64,000 nt of DNA, from assembly GCF_963675165.1 (NCBI RefSeq), contig NC_087385.1, positions 2,108,501-2,172,500 of the forward strand. The letters are read 5' to 3'. This document shows positions 25,711 through 64,000 of this stretch, one piece after another; position 1 is the stretch's first letter; the number at the start of each line of letters is the position of its first letter. The notes beneath the pieces are model-generated. The model was not told the DNA's origin, searched no databases, and was given only the letters and a program-made list of their open reading frames with translations. This stretch comes from Halichondria panicea (lineage: Eukaryota; Porifera; Demospongiae; Suberitida; Halichondriidae). Position numbers and translations under genes: made by a program.

Positions 25711-28700
25711 TCAATGACTCAAATCTACATTTTGCTCACCTTCAATGCTGCTGCCAAAGACAGGGTTTGGTACCATAACACCACCTACCGCTGGTGATCC
25801 TGCCACATCATAGGTTGTCTTCTTTTGACGCAGATTGTACCGTGATACAAACAGTAGCATTAATGTTATCAGAAACAATATTAGCAAGAAAGCACCAATA
25901 GCAATAGCAACCACAGAAGCAATCACTGCTGTAGTGCATGATATCCCAAGAACCGAATTGCACGAATTTTTAGTAGCATCGATTGTGGAATTAGGTCTTG
26001 AACTACTGGTTAGTCTGCAGTCAACACCACTGAAACCATCTGGACATATGCAATGTGTTATAGAGCCGATTCCTTCAACACAAGTGCCATCATTTTGGCA
26101 TCGATAAGTAGGTGCTTTATCACAAAAATTATTCGTCCATTTGGCACCGATCCCCACTGTATCCATCAGCACATGTGCAAAAATATTGGATGCCAATTTC
26201 TTCAACGCATGTACCCCCATTGAAGCAGAAATCTGGCTCACAAAAATCAAGATCTATCTCACAAACATTACCAATAAATCCATCCATGCAGTCGCAGCTA
26301 GTCTCAGTTCCAAAGCCCTCAATACAGCTCCCGTTGTTCGTACAGTTAACAGCCAAGTCTGTACCACAAAAGTTATCATCATTTTCACAATGATCTCCAC
26401 TAAAACTAAAGGAGCAGTTACAAAAGGTTGTTAGTCCAAATCCTTCGATGCATATCCCATTATTAAAGCAGAAGGTGGCTTCGCAGAAATTTAAATCGGT
26501 TTCACATCGGCTACCTAAAAAACCAGCAAGGCAGGAACAGCTAAACATTGGGCCGAATTCCTCTACACAGGTTCCATTGTTCTCACAACTTTTACTGGTG
26601 CAGGCAAAGAAAGATGAATCGTCTTGATCGCAAACATTCCCAGAGAAACCATTTGGACAAATGCAACTGATTCTTGATCCTTCTCCCTCGATACAAGTGC
26701 CTTCATTTGCACAAGTGATTGGCTCACAGAAATCAAGATCAATCTCACAAGCATCACCAGTGAATCCATCCATGCAGTCGCAGCTAGTCTCAGTTCCAAA
26801 GCCCTCAATACAGCTCCCGTTGTTCGTACAGTTAACAGCCAAGTCTGTACCACAAAAGTTGTCATCATTTTCACAATGATCTCCACTAAAACCAAAGGAG
26901 CAGTTACAAAAGGTTGTTAGTCCAAATCCTTCGATGCATATCCCATCATTAAAGCAGAAGGTGGCTTCACAGAAATTTAAATCAGTTTCACATCGGCTCC
27001 CCAAAAAACCAGCAAGGCAAGAACAGCTAAACATTGGGCCGAACTCCTCTACACAGGTTCCATTATTCTCACAGCTAATACCAGTACAGGCAAAGAAAGC
27101 TGTGTCGTCCTGGTCGCAAACGTTCCCAGAATAACCATCCAAACAAATGCAATTGATTCTTGATCCTTCTCCCTCGATACAAGTGCCTTCATTTGCACAA
27201 GTGATTGGCTGACAGTAATCAAGATTGATGTCACATCTTGGACCATTGAAGCCCTCACTACACTCACACGTAATAGGCTCACCATTGGTTTCAGAACAGT
27301 TTCCATTAAAAGTGCAGCTATTCTCAAGACAAAGTTCTGTTTCACACTGATTTCCACGATAGTTGATAGTACAGTTACAGGAAATATTGGTACCAATACC
27401 TTCAACACATGCTCCACCATTGTGACAAGAGTCCTGGTCACAAAATGGGAGATCCAGCTCACAATTTTGGCCGGAAAATCCATCAACACATTCACAAGTT
27501 GTCATTGTTCCTACACCTTCTACACAAACACCATTGTTCATACAGGTTGAATCAGTACAAAACCCGAGATCAGCTTGACAAGCATCTCCTGTGAAACCAA
27601 TAGCACACATACAAGAGAAAGCTCCATTATCCAGGCCAGCATCGATACAAGTACCACCATTCATACAAGGTATACCATTACATGGGAACAAAGGTATACC
27701 ACAGTTCAGACCAGTGTAGTCTGGGGTACAATCACAAGTGTAGGCTCCATTAAGTAGGTTGTTACAGGTTGCATTACTTAAGCAAGGGGCCTCATCACAT
27801 TCATTGATATCAACAGCACATGTATATCCTGTGAAACCTGTCAAACAAGTGCAAGAAAATGTTATGTTTCCATCGATACACGCACTACTACCAAAGTCAC
27901 TGCAGGGACCAAACGGAGCTGGACCAAATGAGCAATAATCTATATCGTTCTCGCAAAGGTCACCAGACCAGCCTTGGTAACAATCACATGTGAAGCTGTT
28001 GACATCGTCTATACACACTCCATTTTGACAGGGACTAGCGACACATTCCTTAATTTCAGTTTCACAAAATTCTCCGATGAATCCATCGATACAATCACAA
28101 GAGAAAATACCAAATCCATCGATACACGTGCCATTGTTACAGACTCCTTGGTTTAAGGCACATTGATTTATTTCAATCTCACAATTCTCACCAGTAAAGT
28201 CAATGGTGCAGTTACACATGTAGTTTGTAGTGCCAATGTTCTCACAGGTGGCATTGTTAAGGCAAAGGCTAAGAGCACATGGGTTGAATAATGTCTCACA
28301 AAATTGACCTGTGTATGCTGGATGACAGTTACATGTGAAATTGAGTTCTCCACTTATGTTTAGTGCTCTGCAAATTCCTTCATTGAAGCAGGTTACATCT
28401 TGACAGGGATCTGTTGGAATTGTATAAAGTGTACATGGAATTGTTTACATACATACCTGGCGTCCCAGTGATTGTAACAAACAAAGAAGTATCAATATCC
28501 GTGGATACATCCATACTGCCTTCTAGACTTCCAAATACCACTGCATTCAGATTTATACTGAAAATGGCCAAATTGTCACTGAACAGTTGAACAGGAATTG
28601 TATCACGAAGAAAGATCTGTTCTTGAATTACAATAAAATTGTTTTGTCTGTCTAAATTTGTAAGTGATGAACCTTGATAATTCTTTTCTCTAGAACCACT

Positions 28701-29848
28701 GTCATATCTAAATATATTCTGAATTGTTTCGGTTTGTAACATTGTCAAAAATATACCCAAAATGCTATCAAAAGCTGTTTCATTCACTATCACTGTGTAA
28801 TTCAGTACTCCTCTACCAACTACAACATCAGCCTCATCGAGAGTCAAATAATAGGCTGTGGCATTAGTTATCAGTGTAGATGATGCTGGCCCTGTAATGA
28901 AACAATACTAATGAAAAATGTATTATTATCTTTATTTTATATCTCACATTGTTGGCAAGTTGCTGTTGTATGATCTCCATAGGATCCAAAGGGGCACACG
29001 TCCGTGCAGTGAGCTGTCAATAAGTATTCCGGTGGTTCACAGGCTGTTTAGCAGTGAACAGTGGTTTATGTAAGCAATTATATAATTATCACTTACGATG
29101 TTCATTTATTTCAGTAGTTTTCAAATCAGCCCAAAAGATTTGCATTGACTGTACAACTGTGTATCTAATACCAAGGTTGATAATTACTGTTAACACACAC
29201 TTTCAATAACGTTTGTTTTGTCTTACACAAAGTATACTGGACCTGAGCCTTTTGGAGGAGCTGTCCATTCAAATGTAACGTTCATTTTACTGCTCCCATT
29301 CACATGCGTAACTGCACTGCCTAGGGGGTACTGTGAAGGGGGTGATACATGTAATCAATAATCAATTTGTTGTTATAACTATACCCGAGCTTGATCACAG
29401 TTTTGAAAACCATACTTATTGGTGTTTGAGGATTGAAAAATTCCAGTAACATTGTCAGGAAACCCAACCTTTCTTGCCTGAATTTGAAAGCCTTTGAAAC
29501 TTGAATTGGAATTGTTCGCTTGTAGTTTTACTGTGTGTATGTTGTGAATGCATTTTATGATCATCACATGTATCATATTGTATGTACTTTTCTTTACAAA
29601 ATGCTATATACATATACGTATGTATTACCTGTGTAAGTAACTCCAGGAACATATTGATACAGACCGCTTGGAGCAAGAAATTTGTCGATAGTAAGCTCAA
29701 ATGAGTTTGTTTCTACTGGTCGTGATGAAGCTCCATCATGGTTTGGCTGTAAGGTAGAACAGGCCTCAGGTGGAGCTCCTGATGAATAAGCATCACTTTG
29801 TTGCAGTAGTGTAATAATTAGACTGAGTATAATAATGAGTCGATACAT
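25711..29848 (-). CDS. Reeler-EGF transmembrane protein, copy A (20 EGF repeats; one frameshift)
   Basis: Exons: 29848-29629 (signal peptide MYRLIIILSLIITLLQQSDA, Reeler start), 29530-29385, 29330-29227, 29164-29097 (Reeler end, VQSMQIFWADL), 29043-28948 (CEPPEYLL...CTDVCPFGSYG), 28891-28457 (conserved ~145-residue unknown domain), 28410-25740 (EGF, TM, tail). The last exon encodes 20 EGF-like repeats, including a four-repeat module present twice. The TM segment (VASVVAIAIGAFLLILFLI) and tail with NPVF follow. Exon 7 is one base too long for the phase kept in copies C, D and F. An extra T near 26130-26136 (ATTATTCG where copy G has ATTATCG) gives a stop before the last EGF and TM. The result is either a truncated, possibly secreted product, a pseudogene, or an assembly error. 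Confidence 0.82.
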
Positions 29849-30586
29849 TCTTGAGCTAGTGATATGCTGTAGATCTAGTAGCAATGTTTGAGCTACAAAG
29901 CAATGATTATAATTATGTTCTCAGGCAAGAATCTGGAATCACCACATGACCATGAATATTTTTATAATAAAAATGGGTGGATGTGTGCAAAAAAATTCTG
30001 AATTAAAGGTTAACCCATTTGGTCTGAATTTAGCACCTAAGTGTACCGAGACCAATACACCCACACAACATAATTTGTTGAAGCATATAGTTGAGTATAA
30101 TTATGGTCATGCAGTGGTCAGTCGCTTTAGCACTACCATAGCATTACATGCAAGCATGCATGAGCAAAACAATTTAAACCAAGAAAGAAAGACTTTCCTA
30201 ATTGTAAGGCACGTTGCCCCCTCCTGAAAAACTCGTGCTTCAAAATAACTTATTGCATGTGAATCAGAACGATCTGCAACAAAATGGGTGGAGTACAATG
30301 ACAGAATGTGCTATGTTTTATACACCAATTTATAACTGGATGATGAATAGTAAAAGTTCAAGGGTATGCGATAAAAATAAGAACTGCATTGGTGAGCTAA
30401 TAAGTAATGTAAGGTTCTTCTTTCTCTGTGTACGAGTCAAAATTTCTGCATATCAATCATCTACAAAAAAGAGGCAGTCTTGTAATGAGCTCGATTTTAC
30501 GTATGAATACTTACCTTTTTAATTGTTAGTTTTGAGTGCCTATACTTATCAGTACTCATTGACTCTATTTCATTTCTTGAACTCAC
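29849..30586. other. Spacer between copies A and B
   Basis: It holds the 5' flank of copy A and the 3' flank of copy B. Segments around 29946-30110 and 30100-30500 recur upstream of copy B and copy C (33620-33760 and 34310-34740), showing that spacer and gene duplicated together. A possible last tail exon (GCACTCAAAACTAAC, donor GTAAGT) lies near 30513-30538. It would end the protein at TAA after a few residues if spliced. Confidence 0.5.
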
Positions 30587-33567
30587 CTCATTACTCACAT
30601 AGATAGGGTTCGATATCATAATACCTCCTACCACTGGTGGTCCTGCCACATTATAGGATCTCTTCTTTTGACGCAGTTTGTACCACATTACTAATAGTAG
30701 CATTAATGTTGCCAGAAACAATACTAGCAAGAAAGCACCAATAGCTATAGCAACCACACCACCAATCGTAGCTTTGGTACATGATATTCCAAAAACCAAA
30801 TTGCACAAATCTTGAGTGACATCAATTGTTGAATTTAGTCCTGAACCACTAGTTAGTCTACAGTCAACACCACTGAAACCATCTGGACATACGCAATGTG
30901 TTATAGAGCCAATTCCTTCAACACAAGTACCATCATTTGGACAAAAGTTTTGATCACAAAACGGGAGATCTAGCAATTTTGTCCGGAAAATCCATCAACA
31001 CATTCACAAGTTGTCATTTTTCCCATACCTTCTACACAAATACCACTGTTCATACAAGTAGAATCAGTACAAAACTCGAGGTCAGTCAGACAAGCATCTC
31101 ATGTGAAACCAGTAGCACATTCACAAGAGAAAGCTCCACTTCCAAGGCCAGCATCGATACAAGTACCACCATTCATACAAGGTATACCATTACATGGGAA
31201 CAAAGGTATACCACAGTTCAGACCTGTGTAGTCTGGGGTACAATCACAAGTGTAGGTTCCATAAAGTAGGTTGTTACAGGTTGCGTTATTCAAGCAAGGG
31301 GCCTCATCACATTCATTGATATCAACAGCACACGTATATTCTGTGAAACCTGTCAAACAAGTGCAGGAAAATGTATTGTTTTCCTCTACACACACACTAC
31401 TACCAAAGTCACTGCAGGGACCAAATGGAGCAGGACCAAATGAGCAATAATCTATATCGTTCTCGCAAAGGTCACCAGACCAGCCTGGGTAACAATCGCA
31501 TGTGAAGCTGTTGATGTCATCTATACACACTCCATTCTAGAAGACAGCTGGGACTAGCGATCTCTACAATCACAAGAGAAAATACCAAATCCATCAATAC
31601 ACGTGCCATTGTTACAGACTCCTTGGTTTAAGGCACATTGATCTATTTCAATCTCACAATTCTCACCAGTGAAGTCGATCGTGCAGTTGCACGTGTAGTT
31701 TGTAGTGCCAATGTTCTCACACGAGGAATCATTAAGGCAACGGTTTAGAGCACATGGGTCGAATAATGTCTCACAGAATTGACCTGTGTATGCCAGATGA
31801 CAGTCACATGTGAAATTGAGTTCTCCACTTGTGTTTAGTGCTCTGCAAATTCCTCCATTGAAGCAGTTGATATCTTGACATGGGCCTGTGTTGGAATAGT
31901 GTATAAAGTGTACATAGATGTTCACATACATACCTGGCGTCCCAGTGATTGTAACAAACAAAGAAGTATCAATATCCGTGGGTACCTCCATACTGTCTGC
32001 TAGACTCCCAAATACCACTGCATTCAGATTTAGACTGAAAATGGCCAAATTGTCACTGAACAGTTGAACAGGAATTGTATCACGAAGAAAGATCTGTTCT
32101 TGAATTACAATGAAATTGTTTTGTCTGTCTAAACTTGCAAGTGATGAACCCTGATAATTCTTTTCTCTAGAACCACTGTCATATCTAAATATATTCTGAA
32201 TTGTTTCGGTTTGCGACATTGTCAAAAATATACCCAAAATGCTATCAAAAGCTGTTTCATTCACTATCACTGTGTAATTCAATACTCCTCTATCAACTAC
32301 AACATCAGCCTCATCGAGAGTCAAATAATAGGCTGTGGCATTAGTTACCAGTGTAGATGATGCTGGCCCTGTAATGAAACAATACTAATGAAAAATGTAT
32401 TATTATCTTTATTTTATATCTCACATTGTTGGCAAGTTGCTGTTGTATGATCTCCATAGGAACCAAAGGGACACATGTCCGTGCAGTGAACTGTCAATAA
32501 GTATTCCGGTGGTTCACAGGCTAAAGTTAGCGGTGAACAGTGGCTTATGTAAGCAATTATATATCACTTACGATGTTCATTTATTTCAGTAGTTTTCAAA
32601 TCAGCCCAAAAGATTTGCATTGACTGTACCACTGTGTATCTAATGCCAAGGTTGATAATACACATTTTCAAGAAAGTTTGTTTGTCTTACACAAAGTATA
32701 CTGGACCTGAGCCTTTTGGGGGAGCTGTCCATTCAAATGTAACGTTCGTTTTACTGCTCCCATTCACATGAGTAACTGCACTGCCTAGGGGGTACTGTGA
32801 AGGGGGTGATACATGTAATCAATAATCAATTTGTTGTTATAACTATACCTGAGCTTGATCACAGTTTTGAAAACCATACTCGTTGGTGTTTGAGGATTGA
32901 AAAATTCCAGTAACATTGTCAGGAAACCTGACCTTTCTTGCCTGAATTTGAAAGCCTTTGAAACTTAAATTGGAATTGTTGTTTGCTTGTAGTTTTACTG
33001 TGCGTATGTTGTATGCATTTTATGATCATCATGTGTATCATATTGTGTACTTTTATTTACAAAATGCTACGTATATATTACCTGTGTAAGTAACTCCAGG
33101 CACATATTGATACACACCGCTTGGAGCAAGAAATTGTTCAATAGTAAACTCAAATGAGTTTGTTTCTACTGGTCGTGATGAAGCTCCATCATGGTTTGGC
33201 TGTAAGGTAGAACAGGCTTCAGGTGGAGCTCCTGATGAATAAGCATCACCTTCTTGCAGTAGTGTAGTAATTAGACTGAGTATAATAATGAGTCAATACA
33301 TTCTTGAGCTAGTGATGTGCTGTAGATCTATTGAGCTACAAAGCAATGAGTTCTCAGGCAAGGAGTTGGAACCACCCCAATAACACTTATGATCGTGAAT
33401 ATTTATAAAAATGGGTGGTGTGCAATAATGAAGCTCCATCATGGTTTGGCTGTAAGGTAGAACAGGCCTCAGGTGGAGCTCCTGATGAATAAGCATCATC
33501 TTCTTGCAGTAGTGTAGTAATTAGACTGAGTATAATAATGAGTCGATACATTCTTGAGCTAGTGATG
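30587..33567 (-). pseudogene. Reeler-EGF copy B (multiple disabling changes)
   Basis: All seven exons are recognisable, but the frame is broken repeatedly. Codon 3 of the proximal first exon is TGA (33295-33293) where paralogues have CGA. EGF3-4 are damaged by a deletion and rearrangement near 31535-31565. A stop (TGA for GGA) lies near 31099 in the seventh EGF. A 4-base deletion near 30973 shifts the frame before the last EGF. The EGF region is the short type (about nine repeats, as in copy C), and the tail carries NPIY. The unknown-domain exon (about 32361-31935) is still fully open, so decay is probably recent. Confidence 0.9.
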
Positions 33568-34784: not shown

Positions 34785-37601
34785 TTATTTCTTGAACTCA
34801 CCTTCAACATTACTGTCAAAGACAGGGTTCGATTTTATAACACCTCCTACCACTGGTGGTCCTGCCACATTATAGGATCTCTTCTTTTGACGCAGTTTGT
34901 ACCGCATTACTAATAGTAGCATTAATGTTGACAGAAACAATATTAGAAAAAAAGCACCAATAGCTATAGCAACCACACCACCAATCGTAGCTTTGGTACA
35001 TGGTATTCCAAAAACCAAATTGCACAAATCTTGAGTGACATCAATTGTTGAATTTAGTCTTGAACCACTGGTTAGTCTACAATCAACACCACTGAAACCA
35101 TCTATACATACGCAATGTGTTAAAGAGCCAATTCCTTCAACACAAGTACCATCATTGCGACAAGAGTTTTTATTACAAAATGGGAGATCTAGCTCGCAAT
35201 TTTGTCCAGAAAATCCGTCAACACATTCACAAGTTGTCATTGTTCCCACACCTTCTACACAAATACCACTGTTCATACAAGTTGAATTAGTACAAAACCC
35301 GAGGTCAGTCTTACAAGCGTCTCCTGTGAAACCAATAGCACACATACAAGAGAAAGCTCCATTTCCAAGGCCAGCATCGATACATGTTCCACCATTTATA
35401 CAAGGTCTACCATTACATGGGAACAGAGGTATACCACAGTTAAGACCAGTGTAGTCTGGAGTACAATCACAAGTGTACGCTCCATTAAGTAGGTTGTTAC
35501 AGGTTGCATTACTTAAGCAAGGGGCCTCATCACATTCATTGATATCAACAGCACACGTATATCCTGTGAAACCTGTCAAACAAGTGCAGAAAAATGTATT
35601 GTTCTCCTCTATACACTCACTACTACCAAAGTCACTGCAGGGACCAAATGGAGCAGGACCAAATGAGCAATAATCTATATCGTTCTCGCAAAGGTCACCA
35701 GACCAGCCTGGGTAACAATCGCATGTGAAGCTGTTGATGTCATCTATACACACTCCATTTTGACAGCTAGGACTAGCACTCTCACATTCATTAATATCCG
35801 TTTCACAAAATGCACCAATAAATCCATCGATACAATCACAAGAGAAAATACCAAATCCATCAATACACGTGCCATTGTTACACACTCCTTGGTTTAAGGC
35901 ACACTGATCTATTTCAATCTCACAATTCTCACCAGTAAAGTCAATAGTGCAGTCACACGTGTAGTTTGTAGTGCCAATGTTCTCACAGGTGGCATTGTTA
36001 AGGCAAAGGCTTAGAGCACATGGGTCAAATAATGTCTCACAGAATTGACCTGTGTATGCCAGATGACAGTCACATGTGAAATTGAGTTCTCCACCTGTGT
36101 TTAGTGCTCTGCAAATTCCTTCATTTAGGCAGGTTACATCTTGACAGGGATCTGTGTTGGACAAATGTATAAAGTATACATAGTATTTTTGACGTACATA
36201 CCTGGCGTCCCAGTGATTGTAACAAACAAGGAAGTATCAATATCCGTGGGTACCTCCATAGTACTGTCTGCTAGACTCCCAAATACCACTGCATTCAGAT
36301 TTAGACTGAAAATAGCCAAATTGTCACTGAACAATTGAACAGGAATTGTATCACGAAGAAAGATCTGTTCTTGAATTACAATGAAATTGTTTTGTCTGTC
36401 TAAACTTGCAAGTGATGAACCCTGATAATCCTTTTCTCTAGAACCGCTGTCATATCTAAATATATTCTGAATTGTTTCGGTTTGTGACATTGTCAAAAAT
36501 ATACCCGAAATGCTATCAAAAGCTGTTTCATTCACTATCACTGTGTAATTCAATACTCCTCTACCAACTACAACATCAGCCTCATCGAGAGTCAAATAAT
36601 AGGCTGTGGCATTAGTTACCAGTGTAGATGATGCTGGCCCTGTAATTAAAAAATACTAATGAAAAAATGCATAATTATTAGTGAATGTTATATTTATTTT
36701 GTATCTCACATTGTTGGCAAGTTGCTGTTGTATGATCTCCATAGGAACCAAAGGGGCACACGTCCGTGCAGTGAGCTGTCAATAAGTATTTCGGTGGTTC
36801 ACAGGCTGTTTAGCAGTGAACAGTGGTTTATGTAAGCAATAATTATATAACACTTACGATGTTCATTTATTTCAGGAGTTCTCAAATCAGCCCAAAAGAT
36901 GTGCATTGACTGTACCACTGTGTATCTAATACCAAGGTTGAGAATTATTGTTAACACACACTTTTCAAGAAAGTTTGTTGTCTTACACAAAGTATACTGG
37001 ACCTGAGCCTTTTAGGGGAGCTGTCCATTCAAATGTAACGTTCATTTTATTGCTCCCATTCACATGGGTAACTGCACTGCCTAGGGGGTACTGCGAAGGG
37101 GGTGGTGCAAACAATTATTCATTGTTTAGGTGCCGTAAGAAACTATAATAACTCATACCTGAGCTTGATCACAACTTTGAAAACCATACTCGTTGATGTT
37201 TGAAGAATTAAAAATGCCGGTAACATTGTCAGGAAACCTGATCTTTCTTGCTTGAATTAGAAAGCCCTTGAAACTCACCGAATTGGAATTGTTGGCTTGT
37301 AGTATCACTGTGTGTGTGTTGTGAAATTATTTTGCATAGCTACATTTAGTGTTCCTATAATTATAATAATTATGTTAATACCTGTGTAAGTGACCCCAGG
37401 CACATATTGAAGTACACCGCTTGGAGTAAGAAATTCTTCGATATCTAGTTCATATGGGTTTGTTTCCGCTGGTTGTGATGAAGCTCCATCGTGGTTTGGC
37501 TGTAAGCTAGAACAAGCTTCAGGTGGAGCTCCTGATGAATAGCCATCACTTTGTTGCATTAGTGCAGCAATTAGACTGAGTATAATAATGAGTTGATTCA
37601 T
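34785..37601 (-). CDS. Reeler-EGF transmembrane protein, copy C (intact, 9 EGF repeats)
   Basis: Exons: 37601-37382, 37307-37159, 37090-36987, 36925-36858, 36805-36710, 36639-36202, 36151-34785. Phases are consistent throughout, giving about 813 residues. Order: signal peptide MNQLIIILSLIAALMQQSDG; Reeler domain (YSSGAPPEACSSLQPNH to VQSMHIFWADL, about 21-180); Cys-rich segment with CTDVCPFGSYGDHT; unknown ~145-residue domain starting LTLDEADVVVGRGVLNYTV; nine EGF-like repeats, several with calcium-binding type DINEC starts; TM VVAIAIGAFFLILFLSTLML; tail LRQKKRSYNVAGPPVV with NPVF. The tail could end in FKK by read-through, or at a small exon if GTGAG at 34801 is used. The likely role is cell-surface adhesion or recognition; the partner is unknown. 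Confidence 0.9.
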
Positions 37602-38879
37602 CTTTTCAGAAACTGTGTTGCTATATAATTCTTGGTTAGCTATAATTTCTGTATGACCTGAGAATAACACAATTGCATCTGTTGTGTGGTGTGCAGTGAA
37701 CCTAAACAATGTTTTCCCTTGTGAAATGTCTGTTTAGATGCAGTGAAATGTTTATTTTGTCCTTGGCGCTTATAAACAATTAACTCGGCTAAAAATCTGG
37801 AATTGTACAAACTCAGTGACACTTTGCATTGACTGTACCACTGTGTATCTAATAGCAAGTTGATTTTGACACACACTTGCAATAATTAAAATTTGTTGTT
37901 TGTCTTACACAAAGTATACTGGACCTGAGCCTTCCGAGGGAGTAATCATTCAACAGTAATGTTCATCTTACTGCTCCCGGCATTCACATGCTTAACTCCA
38001 CTGCGAGGGGCACTGCAGGGTGGTGTAATTAAATTTTGTGTTTGTCTTACCAGAGCTTGATCACAGTTTTGAAGATCATCGTTGTTGTTTGAGGAATGAA
38101 AAATTCCGGTAACACTATTGTCAGGAAACCTGATATTTCTTGCCTGAAACTTAATTGGCTTGTAGTATGACTGTGTGCGTGGTGTGAAATAATTGCACAT
38201 TAATTTTAGTTACATAGCTAGATCTACATGTACTATTCTTACAATAATACCTGGAGCAAGAAATTTAGCTCAGAATTAAGGATTTGTTTCCGCTGCTGGT
38301 GTGATGGAGTTGGCAGTGAGGTAGAGCTCCCGACGAATAGGTTATTTTTGCACTATAGTGTAGCAATTACCTCGTGTACAATAATTAGTTGACAGACTAT
38401 AATAATTATAGGGTAGCTTTAATTTTTCTATAATTATGGCCAGAGAATAACACAATCACATGTGTGGTAGTGTGCAGTGAACCTAAACAATGTTTTCATT
38501 TGTGGAATAGTTGATGATTTATGTGGAAATGCAGGAAACTGTTTTATTTTGTCATGTTGTTCGAAAACCTGTAACTGCAAGAACTGTACCTAGATAACTA
38601 ACTATGTGCTTTATATATAAACACTCGAGGTGAAGCCTCTATTTTGCCAACTACACTGTGTACATAAGTAGAGTTTGTTGGGTATGTATCCTGAGCAACC
38701 TTACAATGCTCAATAGTAAGTCATGGAACAGTCGTATTTGATAGAGTAAGTGCATAAGTTTAGTTCGATATAATTATTGCGTTGTTCATAGTTGCTTCAT
38801 TCTTGTGTGTACAAGTCAAGGTTTCTGTTTATCATTTTTTTTTATTTTATAATAATTCAGCATATAGCATAGGATATAC
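37602..38879 (-). pseudogene. 5' flank of copy C and a decayed Reeler exon set
   Basis: Upstream of copy C, pieces of Reeler exons 4, 3, 2 and 1 appear again in gene order (about 37820-38345) with deletions and stops: AAGTATACTGGACCTGAGCC near 37915, then AGAGCTTGATCACAGTTTTG near 38043. Comparable relics lie upstream of copies D and F. The motif GTGCAGTGAACCTAAACAAT occurs at 37691 and 38472, next to the real and the relic first exon. The rest, to 38879, is duplicated flank shared with 48920-49390 and 60200-60700. Confidence 0.75.
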
Positions 38880-39244: not shown

Positions 39245-39359
39245 AATTGAGCTCTATATTTCAGAACATTTACCTTTGTATTCCCTTGATTCTAAGTGGA
39301 TGTCATGACGTACAAATCAAACTCAATTTATAAATTTTATTGTGTTCACTTTCAACATT

Positions 39360-39760
39360 GCTGCGAAAAAGGGTTTGATAATTATCATAAAATCACCTAC
39401 CATTGGAGATCCTGCCACATTATAGGTTGTTTTTCTATTGATGCAGTTTGTACCACAATATTAGAAACAAGTAAGAAAGCACCAATAGCTATAGAACCAC
39501 ACTAGCAATCGTATCTTTAGTACATGATAATTCAATATACCAAACTGCACAATGGTGGAATTTAGTCCTGAACCACTGAGTCTGCAGTACGTCAACACCA
39601 CTGAAACCATCTGGACATACACAATGTGTTATAGAGCCAATTCCTTCGACACAAGTGCCAGCATTTTGGCATTGATAAGCGGGTTCTTTATCACAGAAAT
39701 TATTATCACTTTGGCACTGATCCCCACTGTAACCATCAGCACATGCAGTGGCGTGTATAA
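39360..39760 (-). pseudogene. Relic of a Reeler-EGF 3' end (last EGFs and TM)
   Basis: Contains NFCDKEPAYQCQNAGTCVEG, HCVCPDGFSGVD and a shredded TM/tail region (TCCTGCCACATTATAGGTTG on the plus strand near 39409). Frame shifts and deletions remove parts of the juxtamembrane segment and TM. It marks a further, mostly lost, gene copy between C and D. Confidence 0.8.
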
Positions 39761-39898
39761 CCGGCCAGGGACTTAGGTGGCTTGAGCACCTCTCTGGCCT
39801 CCCAGACAACCATGGAACTAATCTATCATCAGCACTGGTCTAGCTACTAACTGTGCAGCTCTATTGACTTTTATAATGCAAAGTACATTGTCAACGCA

Positions 39899-46500: not shown

Positions 46501-48042
46501 TAATGTCTCACAGAATTGACCTGTGTATGCTGGATGACAGTCACATGTGAAATTGAGTTCTCCACTTGTGTTTAGTGCTCTGCAAATTCCTCCATTGAAG
46601 CAGTTGATATCTTGACATGGGCCTGTGTTGGAATAGTGTATAAAGTGTACATGGAATTGTTTACATACTTACCTGACGTCCTAGTGATTGTAACAAACAA
46701 AGAAGTATCAATATCCGTGGGTACCTCCATACTGTCTGCTAAACTCCCAAATACCACTGCATTCAGATTTAGACTGAAAATGGCCAAATTGTCACTGAAC
46801 AGTTGAACAGGAATTGTATCACGAAGAAAGAGCTGTTCTTGAATTACAATGAAATTGTTTTGTCTGTCTAAACTTGCAAGTGATGAAACCGGATAATTCT
46901 TTTCTCTAGAACCACTGTTATATCTAAATATATTCTGAATTGTTTCGGTTTGTGACAATGTCAAAAATATACCCAAAATACTATCAAAAGCTATTTCATT
47001 CACTATCACTGTGTAATTCAATACTCCTCTACCAACTACAACATCAGCCTCATCGAGAGTCAAGTAATAGGCTGTGGCATTAGTTACCAGTGTAGATGAT
47101 GCTGGCCCTGTAATTAATTATTAATGAATGTTATAGTTATTTTGTATCTCACATTGTTGGCAAGTTGCTGTTGTATGATCTCCATAGGAACCAAAGGGGC
47201 ACACGTCCGTGCAGTGAGCTGTCAATAAGTATTTCGGTGGTTCACAGGCTGTTTAGCAGTGAACAGTGGTTTATGTAAGCAATAATTATATATCACTTAC
47301 AATGTTCATTTATTTCAATAGTTCTCAAATCAGCCCAAAAGATGTGCATTGACTGTACCACTGTGTATCTAATACCAAGGTTGATAATTATTGTTAACAC
47401 ACACTTTCAAGAACGTTTGTTTGTCTTACACAAAGTATACTGGACCTGAGCCCTCCAGGGGAGCTGTCCATTCAAATGTAACATTTATCTTACTGCTCCC
47501 ATTCACATGGGTGACTGCACTGCCTAGGGGGTACTGTGAAGGGGGTGGTGCAAACAATTATTCATTGTTTAGGTGCCGTAAGAAACTATAATAATTCATA
47601 CCTGAGCTTGATCGCAACTTTGAAAACCATACTGGTTAGGGTTGGTGTTTAAAGAAGTAAAAATGCCGGTAACATTGTCAGGAAACCTAATCTTTCTTGC
47701 TTGAATTAGAAAGCCTTTGAAACTCACCGAATTGGAATTGTTGGCTTGTAGTATCACTGTGTGTGTGTTGTGAAAATATTTTGTATAGCTACATTTGTCT
47801 TCCTATTATAATAATTATCTAATACCTGTGTAAGTGACCCCAGGCACATATTGAAGTACACCGCTAGGAGCAAGAAATTCTTCGATATCTAGTTCATATG
47901 GGTTTGTTTCCGCTGGTTGTGATGGAGTTCCATGGTTTGGCTGTAAGGTAGAACATGCTTCAGGTGGAGCTCCTGATGAATAGCCATCACTTTGTTGCAT
48001 TAGTGCAGCAATTAAACTGAGTATAATAACGAGTTGATACAT
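43573..48042 (-). CDS. Reeler-EGF transmembrane protein, copy D (intact, 23 EGF repeats)
   Basis: Exons: 48042-47826, 47756-47602, 47533-47430, 47368-47301, 47248-47153, 47107-46673, 46622-43573. Phases agree, giving about 1,374 residues, the longest copy. Signal peptide MYQLVIILSLIAALMQQSDG, Reeler domain, Cys-rich segment and unknown domain are as in copy C. The single 3-kb last exon encodes 23 EGF-like repeats. A four-repeat module (starting DYCQP or DFCEP, FFACT, NFCEA or NFCKE, then NFCG or NFCD) is present three times in a row. TM GVVAIAIGAFLLILFLATLM; tail with NPTY. The first EGF starts GPCQDINC. The length difference from C comes entirely from EGF copy number. I infer a surface adhesion or recognition protein. 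Confidence 0.92.
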
Positions 48043-49759
48043 CTTTTCACAGAAACTGTGTGCTATATAAATCTCGGTTAGCTATAATTTCTATATGACG
48101 AGAATAATACAATCGCATCTGTTGTGTGGTGTGCAGTGAACCTAAACAATGTTTTCCCTTGTGGAATATCTGTTTAGATGCAGTGAAATGTTTATTTTGT
48201 CCTTGGCGTTTATAAACATTAACTTTGCAAAAATTTGGAATTGTACAAACTCAGTGACACCTTGCATTGACTGTACCACTGTGTATCTAATAGCAAGTCG
48301 ATATTATTGTTAACACACACTTGCAATAGCGTTTATTGTTTGTCTTACACAAAGTATACTGGACCTGAGCCTTCTGAGGGAGCTGTTCATTCAACAGTAA
48401 TGTTCATCTTACTGCTCCGTTTCATATGCTTATAACTCACTGCAATGGGTAACTCCGCTACGAGGGGTACTGCAGGGTTGAATATAATTTTTGTTTGACT
48501 GTTTTCAGTAATATTACTTACCAGAGGATCACGGTTTTGAAAATCATCTCGTTGGTGTTTGAGGAATGAAAAATAATTCTGGTAACTTGTCAGGAAACCC
48601 GTTGCCTGAATTAGAAACTCACTTAATTGGAAATGTTGGCTTGTAGTATGACTGTGCGTTGTGTGAAAAAGAGCACATTTAGTTGCATAGATTTACATGC
48701 TCTTCTTCAATAACTATGCTAATACCTGGAGCAAGAAAATGTTCACACAGTGTAGTTAGCTCAGAATTACGGATTTGTTTCCGCTGCATGGTGGTGATGG
48801 AGCTCCATGGTTTGGCTGTAAGTTAAAATAGGTTTGAGGTGGAGCTCCCGACGAATAGGTTGTTTTTGCAACTATAGTGTAGCAATTACCCCGAGTGCAA
48901 TAATAATTTTAGTTGACAGACTGTAATATAGGGTAGCTATATTGCCTGAGAATAACATATTGTTGTGTGGTAGTGTGCAGTGAACCTAAACAATGTTTTC
49001 ATTTGTGGAATAGTTGATGATTTATGTGGAAATGCAGGAAACTGTTTTATTTTGTCTTGGTCATTCGTAAACAACTTAGTTAAGAACCTGTAACTGCAAA
49101 CATTAAGAACTGGACCTAGATAAACTATGATTATATGTGTGCTTTATACAATGATAAAAAAAAACACTCGAGGTGAAGCCTCTATTTACACTGTGTACAT
49201 ACGGTAGTAGAGTTTTTTGGGAACGAGCTATCTTGTATCCTGAGCAACATTATTATAAATACAATGCTAAGTCATGGAACAGTCATATTTGATAGAGTAA
49301 GTACATAGGTTTAGTTTGATAATTATTGAGTTGTTCATAGTTGCTTCATTCTTGTGTGTGCGAGTCAAGGTTTCTGTTTATCATCTGTTATCTGCTGCAC
49401 AAAAGAATCATAATTGTTTCAGCTTTGTATTCCCTTGAATCTGAGTGCGTGTCAGTACTCACTGCTTCTACAACTTGGTATTGGAGGCAGCATTTTCAAA
49501 ACTATTGGTAATATTTGGTCACAGTTAACGCACATAACAATATAGTAACCATGGTGATAATGTTATCAGATGAAAGGTATTCAATACATTTTGGGAAAAA
49601 TAATGTGCAATTGACGAGATTAAAAAAAAGTAGTTCTTTATAGTACACTAACTTGTTCAAGAAAAATCAGCCTTAGCCTACCGGTGACTCAATTTATTTA
49701 TTGTGCTCACCTTCAACATTTCTAGTATTATGCGAAACAAACCCCGATCTCAGCACCAC
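48043..49759 (-). pseudogene. 5' flank of copy D with a decayed Reeler exon set
   Basis: The immediate flank has GTGCAGTGAACCTAAACAAT at 48131. Relics of Reeler exons 4 to 1 follow at about 48250-48880 (AGTATACTGGACCTGAGCCT near 48353; GGAGCAAGAAAATGTTC near 48730), with the motif again at 48975. The stretch 49200-49720 is AT-rich and recurs at 60520-60930. It contains no gene. Confidence 0.7.
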
Positions 49760-50944: not shown

Positions 50945-51715
50945 TTATTTCCCGTGCTCACCTTCAATATTGTTGCGAAAAACTGGGTTCGATATCATGA
51001 CACCTCCTACCACTGGTGATCCTGCCACATCATAGGTTCTCTTCTTTTGACGCAGTTTGCACCACAATACTAATAGTAGCATTAATGTTGTCAGAAACAA
51101 TATTAGAAAAAAAGCACCAATAGCTATAGCAACCACACCACCAATCGTAGCTTTGGTACATGATATTCCAAAAACCAAATTGCACAAATCTTGAATAGAA
51201 TTTAGTCCTGAACCACTGGTTAGTCTGCAGTCAACACCACTGAAACCATCTAGACATACGCAATGTGTTGTATAACCAATTCCTTCAACACAAGTGCCAT
51301 CATTTTGGCATCGATAAGTGGGTGCTTTATCACAGAAATTATCGTCCGTTTGGCACCGATCCCCACTGTAACCATCAGCACATGTGCAAAAATATTGGAT
51401 GCCAATTTCTTCAATGCATGTGCCACCATTAAAGCAGGAATCTGGATCACAGAAATCAAGATCTATCTCACAAACATCACCAGTGAATCCATCCATGCAG
51501 TCGCAGCTAGTCTCAGTTCCAAAGACCTCAATACAGCTTCCATTGTTCATACAGTTAACACTCAATTCTGTACCACAAAAGTTGTCATCATTATCACAAT
51601 GATCTCCACTAAAACCAAAGGAGCAGTTACAAAAGGTTGCTAGTCCAAATCCTTCGATGCACATCCCATTATTAAAGCAGGAGGTAGCTTCGCAAAATTT
51701 AAATCAGTTTCACAC
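50945..51715 (-). pseudogene. Reeler-EGF copy E, truncated 3' end
   Basis: Only the last EGF repeats remain (NFCGTEL, DFCDPDSC and NFCDKAPTYRC types, plus part of an NFCEA-type), with TM and a tail with NPVF. At 51715 the gene stops abruptly and is fused to retrotransposon-derived DNA starting CACCTACCTATATCGCTGCT, the same junction sequence as at 42667. A one-base loss in the last partial repeat (GCAAAATTT for GCAAAAATTT) also breaks the frame. No 5' exons are attached. Confidence 0.9.
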
Positions 51716-52484: not shown

Positions 52485-52570
52485 CCAGTGAGTGGGCAGA
52501 TCAAAGCAATCCAGTGCTCAGTATATGGCATGTTGCATCACTGCCATGGCTACCATCTATTGCACTGCAT

Positions 52571-53329: not shown

Positions 53330-53904
53330 TGGCATAAGCACTGGATTATATGCACTTGCACTGTGTGTAAATGCAGTAGATTTCTTATTAAGAGATACTA
53401 TGATCTACGGTGGCCGATAGGGGTCACCCGCCTCCGCTTGCCGCCAACTAATACCGCGAACGGTAAACTTTTTACTGCCCGCGGCTAACACTATTACCGC
53501 AAGCAGTAAAGGGTCACCGCTCCATTTAGCCGCGAGCGGTAAACGAGTGACCGCCCGCGGCGAGGTCCAAAAGTGTTTGGTAAAGGTATGTGTTTCTAAT
53601 AAGAGCACACCCACTATATTCTACTAAGTAATATTTAGAACACACCTAGCCAAGATTAAGTGTTTTAATGCGTGCCGAGGATTGGCTCGAGGTTAACGTA
53701 ATGCTCGAGGCGGAGCCGAGTGCATTACGTAACCGAGAGCCAATCCAAGGCACTGGCATTAAAGCACGTGGTCTTGGGTAGGTATATTCTAAATGTTTTA
53801 GTGCTTCACGTGACCACTTGCCGGATTGCTCCGTATACTATGGTTCGAAAATCAGTAGCCATTTTTTTTTACAAAATGGCTGTCGATTTGCTGCACCTGT
53901 AATT

Positions 53905-56299: not shown

Positions 56300-59200
56300 T
56301 TATTTCTTGAACTCACCTTCAACTTTACTCTCATAGATAGGGTTCGATATCATAATACCTCCTACCACTGGTAGTCCTGCCACATTACAAATTCTCTTCT
56401 TTTGATGAAGTTTGCACCACAATACTAATAGTAGCATTAATGTTGCCAGAAACAATATTAGCAAGAAAGCACCAATAGCTATAGCAACCACACCACCAAT
56501 CGTAGCTTTGGTACATGATATTCCAAAAACCGAATTGCACAAATCTAGCGTATCAGTTTCACATCGGCTCCCCAAAAAACCAGCAAGGCACAAACAGCTA
56601 AACATTACGCCGAATTCCTCTACACAGGTTCCATTGTTCTCACAGCTATTACTGGTGCAGGCAAAGAAAGATGAATCATCTTGATCACAAACGTTCCCAG
56701 AATAACCATCCAAACAAATGCAATTGATTCTTGATCCTTCTCCCTCGATACAAGTGCCTTCATTTGCACAAGTGGTTGGCTGACAGTAATCAAGATCAAT
56801 CTCACATCTCAGACCATTGAAGCCCTCACTACACTCACATGTAATAGGCTCACCATTGGTTTCAGAACAGTTTCCATTAAAGCTGCAGCTATTCTCAAAA
56901 CAAATTTCTGTTTCACACTGATTTCCACGATAGTTGATAGTACAGTTACAGGAAATATGGATACCAATGCCTTCAATACATGTTCCACCATTGTGACAAG
57001 AGTCCTGGTCACAAAGTGGGAGATCCAGCTCACAATTTTGACCGGAAAATCCTTCAAAACATTCACAAGTTGTCATTGTTCCCACACCTTCTACACAAAC
57101 ACCACTGTTCATACAAGTTGAATCAGTACAAAACCCGAGGTCTGCTTGACAAGCATTTCCTGTGAAACCAATAGCACACATACAAGAGAAAGTTCCATTT
57201 CCAAGGCCAGCATCAATACAAGTACCATTATTCATACAAGGTACATCGTTACATGGGAACAGAGGTATACCACAGTTAAGACCAGTGTAGTCTGGGGTAC
57301 AATCACAAGTGTAGGCTCCATTAAGTAGGTTGTTACAGGTTGCATTATTCAAGCAAGGGAACTCATCACATTCATTGATATCAACAGCACACGTATATCC
57401 TGTGAAACCTGTCAAACAAGTGCAAGAAAATGTTATGTTTCCATCGATACACGCACTGCTACCAAAGTCACTGCAGGGACCAAACGGAGCTGGACCAAAT
57501 GAGCAATAATCTATATCGTTCTCGCAAAAGTCACCAAACCAGCCTGGGTAACAATCACATGTGAAGCTGTTGATGTCATCTATACACACTCCATTTTGAC
57601 AGCTGGGACTAGCGACACATTCATTAATTTCAGTTTCACAAAATTCTCCAATAAATCCATCGATACAATCACAAGAGAAAATACCAAATCCATCGATACA
57701 CGTGCCATTGTTACAGACTCCTTGGATTAAGGAACATTGATCTATTTCAATCTCACAATTCTCACCAGTAAAGTCAATAGTGCAGTTGCACGTGTAGTTT
57801 GTAGTGCCAATGTTCTCACAGGTTGCATTGTTAAGGCAAAGGCTAAGAACACATGGGTCAAATAATGTCTCACAGAATTGACCTGTGTATGCCGGATGAC
57901 AGTTACATGTGAAATTGAATTCTCCACTTATGTTTAGTGCTCTGCAAATTCCTTCATTGAAGCAGGTTACATCTTGACATGGACCTGTATTGGACTAGTG
58001 TATAAAGTGTACATGGAATGTTTACATACTTACCTGACGTCCTAGTGATTGTAACAAACAAAGAAGTATCAATATCCGTGGATACATCAATACTGTCTGC
58101 TAGACTCCCAAATACCACTGCATTCAGATTTAGACTGAAAATGGCCAAATTGTCACTGAACAGTTGAACAGGAATCGTATCACGAAGAAAGATCTGTTCT
58201 TGAATTACAATGAAATTGTTTTGTCTGTCTAAACTTGCAAGTGATGAAACCGGATAATTCTTTTCTCTAGAACCACTGTCATATCTAAATATATTCTGAA
58301 TTGTTTCGGTTTGTAACATTGTCAAAAATATACCCACTATGTTATCAAAAGCTGATTCATTCACTATCACTGTGTAATTCAATACTCCTCTACCAACTAC
58401 AACATCAGCCTCATCGAGAGTCAAATAATAGGCTGTGGCATTAGTTACCAGTAGAGATGATGCTGGCCCTGTAATTAAAAAATACTAATGAAAAAATGCA
58501 TAATTATTATATTTATTTTGTATTTCACATTGTTGGCAAGTTGCTGTTGTATGATCTCCATAGGAACCAAAGGGGCACACGTCCGTGCAGTGAGCTGTCA
58601 ATAAGTATTCCGGTGGTTCACAGGCTGAAGTTTAGCAGTGAACAGATGTAAACAATTATAATTATATCACTTACGATGTTCATTTATTTCAGGAGTTCTC
58701 AAATCAGCCCAAAAGATTTGCATTGACTGTACCACTGTGTATCTAATACCAAGGTTGATAATTATTGTTAATACACACTTTCAAGAAGTTTGTTTGTCTT
58801 ACACAAAGTATACTGGACCCGAGCCTTTTGGGGGAGCTGTCCATTTAAACGTAACATTCATCTTACTGCTCCCATTCACATGCGTAACTGCACTGCCGAG
58901 GGGGTACTGCGAAGGGGGTGGTGCAAACAATTATTCATTGTTTAGGTGGCCGTAAGAAACTATAATAATTCATACCTGAGCTTGATCGCAACTCTGAAAA
59001 CCAAACTCGTTGGTGTTTGAAGAATTAAAAATGCCAGTAACATTGTCAGGAAACCTGATCTTTCTTGCTTGAATTAGAAAGCCTTTGAAACTCACCACAT
59101 TTGACTTGTTGGCTTGTAGTATCACTGTGTGTGTGTGTTGTGAAAATATTTTGCCTAGCTACATTTGTCTTCCTATATACTAATACCTGTGTAAGTGACT

Positions 59201-59403
59201 CCAGGTACATATTGATACACACTGCTTGGAGCAAGAAGTTCTTCGATATCTAGTTCATATGGGTTTGTTTCCACTGGTTGTGATGTAGTTCCATGGTCTG
59301 GCTGTAAGGTAGAACATGCTTCAGGTGGAGCTCCTGATGAATAGCCATCACTTTGTTGCATTAGTGTAGCAATTAGACTGAGTATAATAATGAGTCGATA
59401 CAT
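56300..59403 (-). CDS. Reeler-EGF transmembrane protein, copy F (intact, 12 EGF repeats)
   Basis: Exons: 59403-59187, 59124-58976, 58906-58803, 58742-58675, 58624-58529, 58468-58034, 57984-56300. Phases agree, giving about 917 residues. Domains are as in copy C, with 12 EGF-like repeats. After the FFACT-type repeat the protein jumps in frame (CETD-TLDLCNSVFGISC) straight to the juxtamembrane Cys segment. All later repeats, including the last EGF before TM kept by other copies, were lost by an in-frame deletion. TM GGVVAIAIGAFLLILFLATL; tail with NPIY. The donor after the fifth exon is GTGAAA, weaker than GTGAGA in the paralogues. Confidence 0.9.
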
Positions 59404-61019
59404 CTTTTGCAGAAACTGTGTGGAATTTTCGATTAGCTATAATTTCTATATGGTGAGAATAATACAATTGCATCTGTTGTGTGGTGTATGTGCAGTGAAC
59501 CTAAACAATGTTTTCCCTTGTGTAATGTCTGATGGTTTATGTTTAGATGTATAGTGAAATGTTTGTTTTGTCCTTGGCGTTTATAAACAATTAACTTGGC
59601 AAAACTCTGATCATTGACACTTTGCATTGACTGTACCACTGTGTGTGTATCTAATTAGCAAATTGATATTATTTAACACACACTTGCAATAGCGTTTGTT
59701 GTTTGTCTTACAAATATACTGGATTTGAGCCTTCTGAGGGAGCTGTTCATTCAACAGTAACGTTCATGTTACTGCTCCCATTCACATGTTTATAACTCAC
59801 TGCGATGGGTAACTCCACTACGAGGGGTACTGCAGGTGAACTGTTTTCACTTACCAGAGGATCACGGTTTTGAAAATCATCTCGTTGGTGTTTGAGGAAC
59901 GAAAAATATTTCCGGTAACTTGTCAGGAAACTCGTTGCCTGAATTAGAAACTCACTTAATTGGAAATGTTGGCTTGTAGTATGACTGTGTGCTTGGTGTG
60001 AAAAAGTAGTTGCATAGATTTACATGCTCTTCTTCGCTAATACCTTGAGCAAGAAAATGTTCACACAGTGTAGTTAGCGGATTTGTTTCCGCTGCATGGT
60101 GGTGGTGGAGCTCCATGGTTTGGCTCTAAGCTAACAGGTTTGATGTGGAGCTCCCGACGAATAGGTTGTTTTGTGTAGCAATTACCCCCGAGTACAATAA
60201 TTAGTTGACAGACTATAATAGGGTAGCTTTAATTTCTATATTGCCTGAGAATAACATAATTATTGTTGTGTGCATGGTAGTGTGCATTGAACCTAAACTG
60301 TGTTTTCATTTGTGGAATAGCTGATGATTTATGTGGAAATGTAGGAAACTGTTTTATTTTGTCTTAGTCTTTCGTAAACAACTTAGTTAAGAACCTGTAA
60401 CTGCAAACATTAAGAACTGGACCTAGATAAACTATGATTATATATAATTATGTGTGCTTTATACAATGATAAGAAAACACTCGAGGTGAAGCCTCTATTT
60501 ACACTGTGTACATACGGTAGTAGAGTTTTTGGGAACGAGCTATCTTGTATCTTGAGCAACATTATCATAAATACAATGCTCAATAGAATAAGTCATGGAA
60601 CACTAGTATTTGATAGAGTAAGTACATAAGTTTAGATCAATAATTATGGAGTTGTTCATAGTTGCTTCATTCTTGTGTGTACAAGTCAAGGTTTTCTGTT
60701 TATCATTAAATTATGTTTATCTGCACAAAAGAATCATAATTGTATTAAGTGAGCTCCATATCTCATATGAACATTTACCATGGTAATAATGTTATCAGAT
60801 GAAAGGTATTCATGTTTACAATACATTTTGGGAAAAATAATGTGCAATTGACGAGATAAAAAAAAATGGTAGTTCTTTATAGTACACTAACTTGTTCAAG
60901 AAAAATCAGCCTTAGCCTACCGGAGGACAAATACATTGACTCAATATTTATTGTGCTCACCTTCAACATTTCTAGTATCATGCAAAACAAGCCCCGATCT
61001 AGCACCATGCACTATCAGT
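59404..61019 (-). pseudogene. 5' flank of copy F with a decayed Reeler exon set and duplicated spacer
   Basis: GTGCAGTGAACCTAAACAAT-type motif at 59491 and, as a variant, at 60281. Reeler exon relics 4 to 1 are spread over about 59600-60170 with deletions. 60200-60990 parallels 48920-49760. No intact gene. Confidence 0.7.
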
Positions 61020-61640: not shown

Positions 61641-62180
61641 GCTGTGATGTGCAGTGAACCAAAACAATGTTTTCCCTTGTGGAATAGCTGTATGCTGAAC
61701 TGTCCGTTATTGTTTGCAAACAAGAATCTGGAACTGCACATATTTTGGGAATCTTAAAAACTGAACCCAGTACATTATGTGTGCTTTACTGTTATAATTG
61801 TGAGTCATCGAAGTTAAATTTAAATTTAAATTGTACGTTCTAGAGTCTATCACTCGAGGTGAAGTCTCTATATAACTACACTGTGTATATTATACTTGGC
61901 AGTCGGGTTTCCTTTGTCACAAGCTGCAAGTTTCGTTAATCAACCTTTTAAATGAAGAATAAGTCATGGAAAGTCATATTAATTAATTTAAGTGTGCTAT
62001 AATTATGAGTCATCGAAGTTATTTTGAGTGCTACACGTTCATAGTTGCTTGTGTACGAGTCAAGTTTTCTGTTCATCAATTATCTACACAAAAGAATGAT
62101 AACAGTAGCTCAATACTCAGTATTAAGCATGAACACTTACACCTTTGCGCTCTCTTCATTCTGAGTTCATGTCAGTACAC
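61641..62180. other. Duplicated spacer between the retro fragment and copy G
   Basis: GTGCAGTGAACC at 61650, then sequence parallel to 50402-50940. No gene seen. Confidence 0.5.
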
Positions 62181-64000
62181 TTATTTCCTGTGCTCACCTT
62201 CATTGTTGCAAAAAACTGGGTTCGATATCATGACACCTCCTACCACTGGTGATCCTGCCACATCATAAGTTCTCTTCTTTTGACGCAGTTTGCACCACAA
62301 TATACTAATAGTAGCATTAATGTTGTCAGAAACAATATTAGAAAAAAAGCACCAATAGCTATAGCAACCACACCACCAATCGTAGCTTTGGTACATGATA
62401 TTCCAAAAACCAAATTGCACAAATCTTGAGTAACATCAATAGAATTTAGTCCTGAACCACTGGTTAGTCTGCAGTCAACACCACTGAAACCATCTGGACA
62501 TACGCAATGTGTTGTATAACCAATTCCTTCGACACAAGTGCCATCATTTTGGCATCGATAAGTGGGTGCTTTATCACAAAAATTATCGTCCGTTTGGCAC
62601 CGATCCCCATTGTAACCATCAGCACATGAGTAAGAAAATTGGATGCCAATTTCTTCAATGCATGTACCACCATTAAAGCAGGAATCTGGCTCACAGAAAT
62701 CAATATCAATCTCACAAACATCACCAGTGAATCCATCCATGCAGTCGCAGCTAGTCTCAGTTCCAAAGCCCTCAATACAGCTTCCATTGTTCGTACAGTT
62801 AACACTCAATTCTGTACCACAAAAGTTGTCATCATTATCACAATGATTTCCACTAAAACCGAAGGAGCAGTTACAAAAGGTTGTTAGTCCAAATCCTTCG
62901 ATGCATATCCCATTATTAAAGCAGGAGGTAGCTTCGCAAAAATTTAAATCAGTTTCACAACGGCCACCCAAAAAACCAGCAAGGCAAGAACAGCTAAACG
63001 TTGGGCCGAATTCCTCTACACAGGTTCCATTGTTCTCACAACTATTACCAGCACAGGCAAAGAAAGCTCTGTCGTCCTGATCGCAAATGTTCCCAGAATA
63101 ACCGTCCGAACAAATGCAACTGATTCTTGATCCTTCTCCCTCGATACAAGTGCCTTTATTTGCACAAGTCTTTGGCTGACAGTAATCAAGGTCAATGTCA
63201 CATCTCAGACAACTGAAGCCCTCACTACACTCACACATAATAGGCTCACCATTGGTTTCAGAACAGTTTCCATTAAAGCTGCAGCTATTCTCAAGACAAA
63301 TTTCTGTTTCACACTGAATTCCACGATAGGTGCCAGCACAGTTACAGGAAATATGGATACCAATACCTTCAACACATGCTCCACCATTGCGACAAGAGTC
63401 CTGGTCACAAAATGGGAGATCTAGCTCACAATTTTGTCCGGAAAATCCGTCAACACATTCACAAGTTGTCATTGTTCCCACACCTTCTACACAAACACCA
63501 CTGTTCACACAAGTTGAATCAGTACAAAACTCGAGGTCAGTCTGACAAGCATCTCCTGTGAAACCAGTAGCACATTCACAAGAGAAAGCTCCACTTCCAA
63601 GGCCAGCATCGATACAAGTACCATTATTCATGCAAGGTACATCGTTACATGGGAACAAAGGTATACCACAGTTAAGACCTGTGTAGTCTGGAGTACAATC
63701 ACAAGTGTAGGCTCCATTAAGTAGGTTGTTACAGGTTGCATTACTTAAGCAAGGGGCCTCATCACATTCATTGATATCAACAGCACACGTATATCCTGTG
63801 AAACCTGTCAAACAAGTACAGGAAAATGTTATGTTTCCATCGATACACGCACTGCTACCAAAGTCACTGCAGGGACCAAATGGAGCAGGACCAAATGAGC
63901 AATAATCTATATCGTTCTCGCAAAGGTAACCAGACCAGCCTGGGTAACAATCACATGTGAAGCTGTTGATGTCATCTATACACACTCCATTTTGACAACT
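62181..64000 (-). CDS. Reeler-EGF copy G, 3' part (at least 13 EGF repeats; frameshift in TM; 5' end off window)
   Basis: Part of the large EGF exon, open to the right edge. It has 13 EGF-like repeats, from a partial CIDDINSFTC repeat to NFCDKAPTYRC, then the juxtamembrane segment and TM start (GGVVAIAIGAFFLILFLTTL). At about 62298-62303 the sequence AATATACTA replaces AATACTA of the other copies, a 2-base insertion. The frame shifts at the end of the TM and terminates about 22 residues later at 62240. The normal tail with NPVF is still present downstream in the original frame (to 62198) but is not read. Either a tail-altered protein, a pseudogene, or a sequencing error. Confidence 0.82.

Follow-up and report, generated by a model that had tools for sequence, protein, structure and literature searches.

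The 64,000-nucleotide stretch of the sponge Halichondria panicea analysed here (the window; contig NC_087385.1, hereafter C9, C9:2108501-2172500) carries a tandem array of genes for surface proteins built of a Reeler head, an EGF stalk, a transmembrane (TM) segment and a short tail. The array starts at position 25711, lies on the minus strand and ends 1.8 kb beyond the end of the window, an extent of 40 kb. Both the array and recombination among its copies are real, and the whole is best read as a receptor array evolving by birth and death, unusual in its architecture but ordinary in kind. Tentatively, and with confidence still somewhat short of even, we favor a lineage-specific tandem family of type I single-pass surface receptors whose head would bind a conserved ligand and whose NPx[F/Y] tail would drive uptake. 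Duplication, unequal exchange and decay would have shaped this family. The window belongs to a genome of 131 Mb in 39 contigs and all the comparisons reported below involve paralogues of this one assembly. Its gene content and small introns probably fit a sponge, but a degenerate pattern for the silicatein active site had 0 matches, and reading 5 of the 77 Peptidase_C1 matches yielded cathepsin-like genes and no silicatein.

Array extent and gene model

Comparison of the window with itself using blastn revealed, from 25.7 kb on, repeats of 2.5-4.3 kb that form ten pairwise self-alignments with 84.9-90.7% identity, and chance similarity was rejected on these grounds. The census of copies was performed with tblastn over 114 kb of contig C9, using the exon peptides of copy E as queries. 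All exon modules were present in six copies (A, B, C, E, G and H), and a truncated copy F was also found, as well as Reeler relics between the copies; a further relic, D, is visible in the blastn self-table and in the three-frame reading. No more copies were detected by the same search in the 28 kb beyond H. A previous sequence-only reading of this DNA had announced at least seven tandem copies, from intact to broken, with partial copies in the spacers. The tandem succession of Reeler, unknown domain, EGF array, TM segment and short tail is confirmed from 25711 on, but only six copies have every exon module, the sixth (H) starting outside the window, and a count of seven holds only if the 3' piece F and the decayed relic D are included. 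The gradation from intact to broken was correctly perceived: C, E and G are open, A has one frameshift, B and H have several lesions, and F and D are partial. The Reeler pieces in the spacers were likewise recovered (Table 1).

Seven exons are common to the six copies and encode a signal peptide and the Reeler domain, then a short Cys-rich exon, an unknown mid-domain of 146 amino acids and, within a single exon, the EGFs, the TM segment and the tail. Three of the six copies with full modules are intact (C, E and G), each displaying GT/AG at all 12 intron ends and no internal stop. A single gene with alternative exons was considered and rejected, as each of these three copies possesses its own start, splice sites and stop. 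Copy A is open through EGF19 and contains one base more than copy F ahead of EGF20; in copy H, a stop interrupts exon 2, exon 6 has lost sequence close to its beginning, and the reading frame shifts at the TM segment.

Spliced copy C matches the Pfam Reeler model over its full length (PF02014, model positions 1-131, E 4.4e-24, 85.9 bits against a cut-off of 21) and Pfam EGF (E 6.7e-40). At E 0.1, Reeler and EGF-type families are the only Pfam matches of copy C: immunoglobulin (Ig)-type, EMI, Calx-beta and von Willebrand domains are absent, and no family matches its Cys-rich exon and mid-domain. A sequence search with the mid-domain gave one Pfam match (E 0.23) in one of nine members. Comparison of the mid-domain with PDB profiles gave five matches, the best at E 0.0085 over 50 residues of a portal protein, which were judged to be due to chance. 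Spondin-1 Reeler chains were matched weakly by sequence (E 0.38-0.66).

Exchange between copies

As judged from the alignments, the copies are mosaics: exons 1-2 retain two old lineages, similarity is much greater downstream, and in the EGF exon the copies group anew. In a divergence scan using windows of 150 columns, A and B are 16-26% different from C, E and G in exons 1-2 and intron 1, and the pairwise difference is 1-15% from exon 3 onward. The flank preceding the start codon is common to C, E and G (2-20% different), and pairs with A, B or H are 47-73% different there (first four windows). The division of A and B from C, E, G and H is backed by 45 of 74 informative columns in exons 1-2, by 9 of 28 in exons 3-6 and by a single one of 71 in EGF1-8; exons 1-2 differ in this respect from everything downstream (10/99) with a Fisher p of 1.3e-12. 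The tree of EGF1-8 places B with C (0.98) and A with G (0.94). Stretches of identical polymorphic sites exceeded those of shuffles at p < 0.05 in 12 of the 15 pairs and in 5 after Bonferroni correction, in a test that uneven rates along the gene can inflate. Exchange between copies, as anticipated by the sequence-only reading, is thus clear from the mosaic columns and the EGF regrouping. The role of donors that it gave to the pseudogenes is not shown: the tracts are common to intact and broken copies and their direction is not readable. Exchange of this kind homogenises one part of the gene, the Reeler exons remaining divided into two lineages.

The EGFs, counted as Cys in sixes, number 9 in C, 12 in G, 23 in E and 19 in A, plus one past the frameshift; the variable length that had been proposed is therefore real and proceeds by whole modules. 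A 486-bp unit of four EGFs contributes to the additional EGFs of A and E, being present according to Tandem Repeats Finder (TRF) in 2.0 copies in A and 3.0 in E. Units at like positions in A and E have synonymous divergences (dS) of 0.10 and 0.13, against 0.26-0.51 for units inside one gene, and because the former are the closer, the block repeat is older than the A/E split. The pooled ratio of nonsynonymous to synonymous differences per site (pN/pS) of the block units is 0.25. The last EGF of C seems to combine EGF9 with the terminal EGF, and in G the stalk follows on EGF12; in-frame deletions apparently account for both. The array constitutes a compact example of receptor-array growth, in which whole EGF modules are gained or lost in frame inside a single exon.

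Selection on the copies

Codon counts were established with the stops of B and H read as X or skipped, no lesion being repaired. Over the six copies, the pooled pN/pS is 0.38 in Reeler exons 1-3 (pairs 0.29-0.42), 0.64 in the mid-domain (pS 0.065; pairs 0.17-1.42) and 1.00 in exons 4-5, the last on few changes (pS only 0.031) and with four pairs with B above 1. It amounts to 0.26 in EGF1-8 of A, C, E and G (pairs 0.16-0.37), to 0.39 in EGF9-12 of A, E and G (0.28-0.74) and to 0.94 in the TM segment and tail of A, C, E, F and G (0.63-1.63; 4 of the 10 pairs exceed 1 and one equals 1.00). Such averages could conceal a few selected sites. For the three pairs of intact copies, pN is lower than pS in every case in Reeler exons 1-4 (p 0.004-0.010) and in EGF1-8 (p 4e-4 to 3e-10), and indistinguishable from it in exons 5-6 (0/3 significant, p 0.08-0.78). 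Over the entire common outer part, these pairs show a pN/pS of 0.29-0.46 (3/3, p <= 4.9e-5) at a synonymous difference of 10-13%. That C, E and G are fully open despite such a distance indicates that selection retained more than one copy.

At least three amino acids are found among the six copies at 16 of the 360 codons of exons 1-6, and exons 4-6 are the most alike part across copies. The array had been put forward as a candidate diversifying locus, a qualification that fails where testable: the Reeler domain and the EGFs are under purifying selection, and values near 1 sit in the TM segment and tail and in the short exons 4-5, not in the Reeler head or the stalk. As this case shows, a receptor array can recombine and abound in pseudogenes without diversifying.

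Cytoplasmic tail

The tails are about 40 residues long. The NPx[F/Y] motif is present in all seven tails that reach it, as NPxF in A, C, F and H and as NPxY in B, E and G; relic D and a TM scrap at 52.1 kb are left out of this count. The F and Y of the motif are one base apart, and N, P and the aromatic residue are kept in 7/7.

Relatives elsewhere in the genome

A whole-genome search with the mid-domain returned nine matches, namely six in the array, one on contig C12 (44%) and two on C5 (32% and 30%); a tenth adjoins one of the C5 matches and was found in the sequence of that locus. The C12 gene is the closest single relative and displays the module order of the array with more EGFs and possibly a TM segment. 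On C5, the Cys-rich exon and the mid-domain stand beside sushi repeats (two above cut-off in locus L013, one below in locus L012), and these exons may belong to one gene. Of five open reading frames (ORFs) of L013 taken for Calx-beta, Pfam matched one, below cut-off. The unknown mid-domain thus occurs in several genomic settings of this genome.

A gene on C17 holds Reeler exons, EGFs and a TM-like ORF, with no mid-domain match. At C17:4.40-4.44 Mb (L036, L037, L038, L019), further Reeler genes follow one another, their exons 1-3 in order on one strand. Within the array, the TM/tail peptide matched in eight rows, which represent seven tails as H occupies two of them; weak matches were also obtained on C16 and C15. 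A solitary 30-residue fragment of the array TM exon, 70-75% identical, lies at C2:452215-452304 (L035:4216-4305).

Interpretation

The receptor reading tentatively favored here would operate as follows. The head formed by the Reeler and mid-domain would bind a conserved ligand, which may be a microbial surface, a particle or matrix, and the number of EGFs would set the distance of this head from the membrane. The NPx[F/Y] tail would recruit a PTB-domain or clathrin adaptor and so permit cargo uptake. Unequal crossing-over, between genes and between EGF modules, would create copies, and exchange from about exon 3 onward would keep the protein middles alike. The proposal draws on the gene models and domain matches, the EGF numbers with the 486-bp block, the mosaic columns, the selection values, the NPx[F/Y] motif of the seven tails, and the published work on Reeler in shrimp and a sponge and on NPxY in engulfment receptors cited below. 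Several observations weigh against this proposal. The pN/pS of the tail is near 1 overall, which is odd for a signalling tail, though the NPx[F/Y] residues stay; a Tyr upstream of the motif is lost in G; and neither an immunoreceptor tyrosine-based activation motif (ITAM) nor YxxL was seen on reading the array tails, which are very short in comparison with the engulfment receptors Megf10, Draper and CED-1. The array proteins also carry a Reeler and mid-domain instead of the EMI domain of these receptors (no EMI match in copy C). Exchange in exons 3-6 is incomplete, since A and B still group together in their tree (0.995), on a branch a tenth as long (0.024 vs 0.244), and the low synonymous change in exons 4-6 could have a cause other than gene conversion.

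The copies could instead be ordinary adhesion or matrix-anchoring receptors, with a Reeler head on an EGF stalk, no role in immunity or uptake, and a copy number drifting by birth and death. The strong conservation of the EGF exons (EGF1-8), the C12 relative with the same module order and the sushi repeats adjoining the mid-domain on C5 are all consistent with this explanation, which we nevertheless regard as rather unlikely: by itself, it accounts neither for the retained NPx[F/Y] nor for the fast copy turnover. Still less likely is a mostly decaying array, in which one or two copies would function and the rest would be by-products of unequal crossing-over. Half of the full-module copies are indeed broken, F, D and the Reeler relics add to them, and the pN/pS of the TM segment and tail is near 1; the three intact copies, open and constrained at their synonymous distance, argue the opposite.

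A role in allorecognition is possible but unsupported by the sequence. The version under which polymorphic receptors, with pseudogenes donating variation, would decide between fusion and rejection appears improbable. The array does present tandem TM receptors with pseudogenes, variable length, inter-copy exchange and Reeler exons 1-2 that fall into two diverged lineages. Hydractinia Alr and Botryllus fuhc also comprise clusters of membrane-protein genes. However, the paralogue comparison points to purifying selection on the Reeler domain and EGFs, exons 4-6 are homogenised rather than varied, and copy C gave no Ig-type domain match; by contrast, passages of PMC3691228 describe fuhc as polymorphic and positively selected, with three Ig domains in its membrane gene. 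Linkage to Calx-beta genes was not seen either: among the 150 of 645 candidates that were scored, the matches on contig C9 occur near 5.65 Mb. The least probable proposal of all, hardly more than conjecture, takes the Cys-rich exon and mid-domain as a module common to the array receptors and to the C5 loci with sushi and Calx-beta-like repeats (a make-up of aggregation-factor-type matrix proteins). Products of the array may then serve this secreted matrix as receptors or anchors in the membrane; gene conversion would keep the matching mid-domains similar, and the number of EGFs would determine the reach.

Comparison with described systems

Calx-beta repeats are a feature of sponge aggregation factors. 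The array resembles their genes in that the mid-domain is also found beside sushi repeats and the sub-threshold Calx-beta match on C5, and differs from them by the absence of Calx-beta and von Willebrand domains in copy C. No Reeler-EGF-TM array is described in the titles and abstract beginnings of the literature on Reeler with EGF, sponges, allorecognition, immunity or domain architecture, among the matches listed. A full-length Reeler (PF02014) is what array copy C has in common with Spondin-1 and with the Reeler defence proteins of arthropods. In shrimp, PMC12113285 reports antibacterial Reeler domain-containing molecules, from which the array differs by placing the Reeler at the head of a long EGF-TM receptor. 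Among sponges, a Reeler gene responsive to microbial patterns is mentioned in part of PMC6208332, and the Reeler domain is named in one secreted protein of a calcareous sponge in part of PMC12419799. The main text of an Amphimedon graft study contains neither 'reeler' nor 'EGF' (PMC5450542). With Megf10, Draper and CED-1, the array shares a single pass through the membrane, an EGF-rich exterior and the NPxY-type motif reported for EGF-rich engulfment receptors in sections of PMC8092387. Like the sea urchin Sp185/333 genes, as partly described in PMC5103432, it consists of tandem similar genes with segmental duplications; in contrast, pseudogenes are common in the array, and a section heading of that article states that there are none in the Sp185/333 family. 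A further difference is that no microsatellites surround the array genes, TRF on 25000-64000 having given two EGF blocks and one 37-bp repeat.

Feature coordinates and neighboring genes

Table 1. Array copies, relics and repeat blocks, in window coordinates
Feature	Position	Strand	Remarks
Copy A	25711..29848	-	20 EGFs; all seven exon modules; one frameshift between EGF19 and EGF20
486-bp four-EGF block within A	26234-27225		2.0 copies
Copy B	30497..33301	-	All exon modules; stop at codon 3, more stops/frame changes in EGF exon
Partial additional exon 1 upstream of B	33402..33551	-	64% identity to exon 1 of E
Copy C	34785..37601	-	Intact; 813 amino acids; 9 EGFs
Spacer relic of Reeler exon 2-3	37908..38164	-	
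Relic D	39339..39845	-	Decayed; last EGFs, TM, tail
Copy E	43573..48042	-	Intact; 1374 amino acids; 23 EGFs
486-bp four-EGF block within E	43987..45441	-	Three copies
Spacer relic of Reeler exons 1 and 3	48348..48857	-	
Copy F	50945..51703	-	3' piece only; 4 EGFs, TM, tail
TM scrap	52.1 kb		tblastn
Copy G	56300..59403	-	Intact; 917 amino acids; 12 EGFs
Spacer relic of Reeler exon 3	59714..59809	-	
Copy H	62150..64000	-	3' part in window; gene extends to 65784

The second expanded surface-protein array said to lie nearby does exist as a tandem array, its extent being three copies plus one distant relative (31%) on C5. The copies, at 1-2643, 6446-10207 and 12221-16006 on the minus strand, are single-ORF membrane proteins of about 1250 amino acids with 87-89% DNA identity, for which only a weak Chlamydia PMP-repeat match was obtained (E 0.17). 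A match to 7tm_3 (class C G-protein-coupled receptor, GPCR) is located between both arrays at 18835-19206 on the minus strand (E 6.1e-13). A 570-bp piece beside the GPCR region (19547-20085) recurs with 91% identity in a spacer of the Reeler array (41253-41814). An ORF at 53903-54391 on the plus strand gave a QRICH1-domain match below cut-off (25.6 vs 30.8 bits) and is perhaps part of a mobile element.

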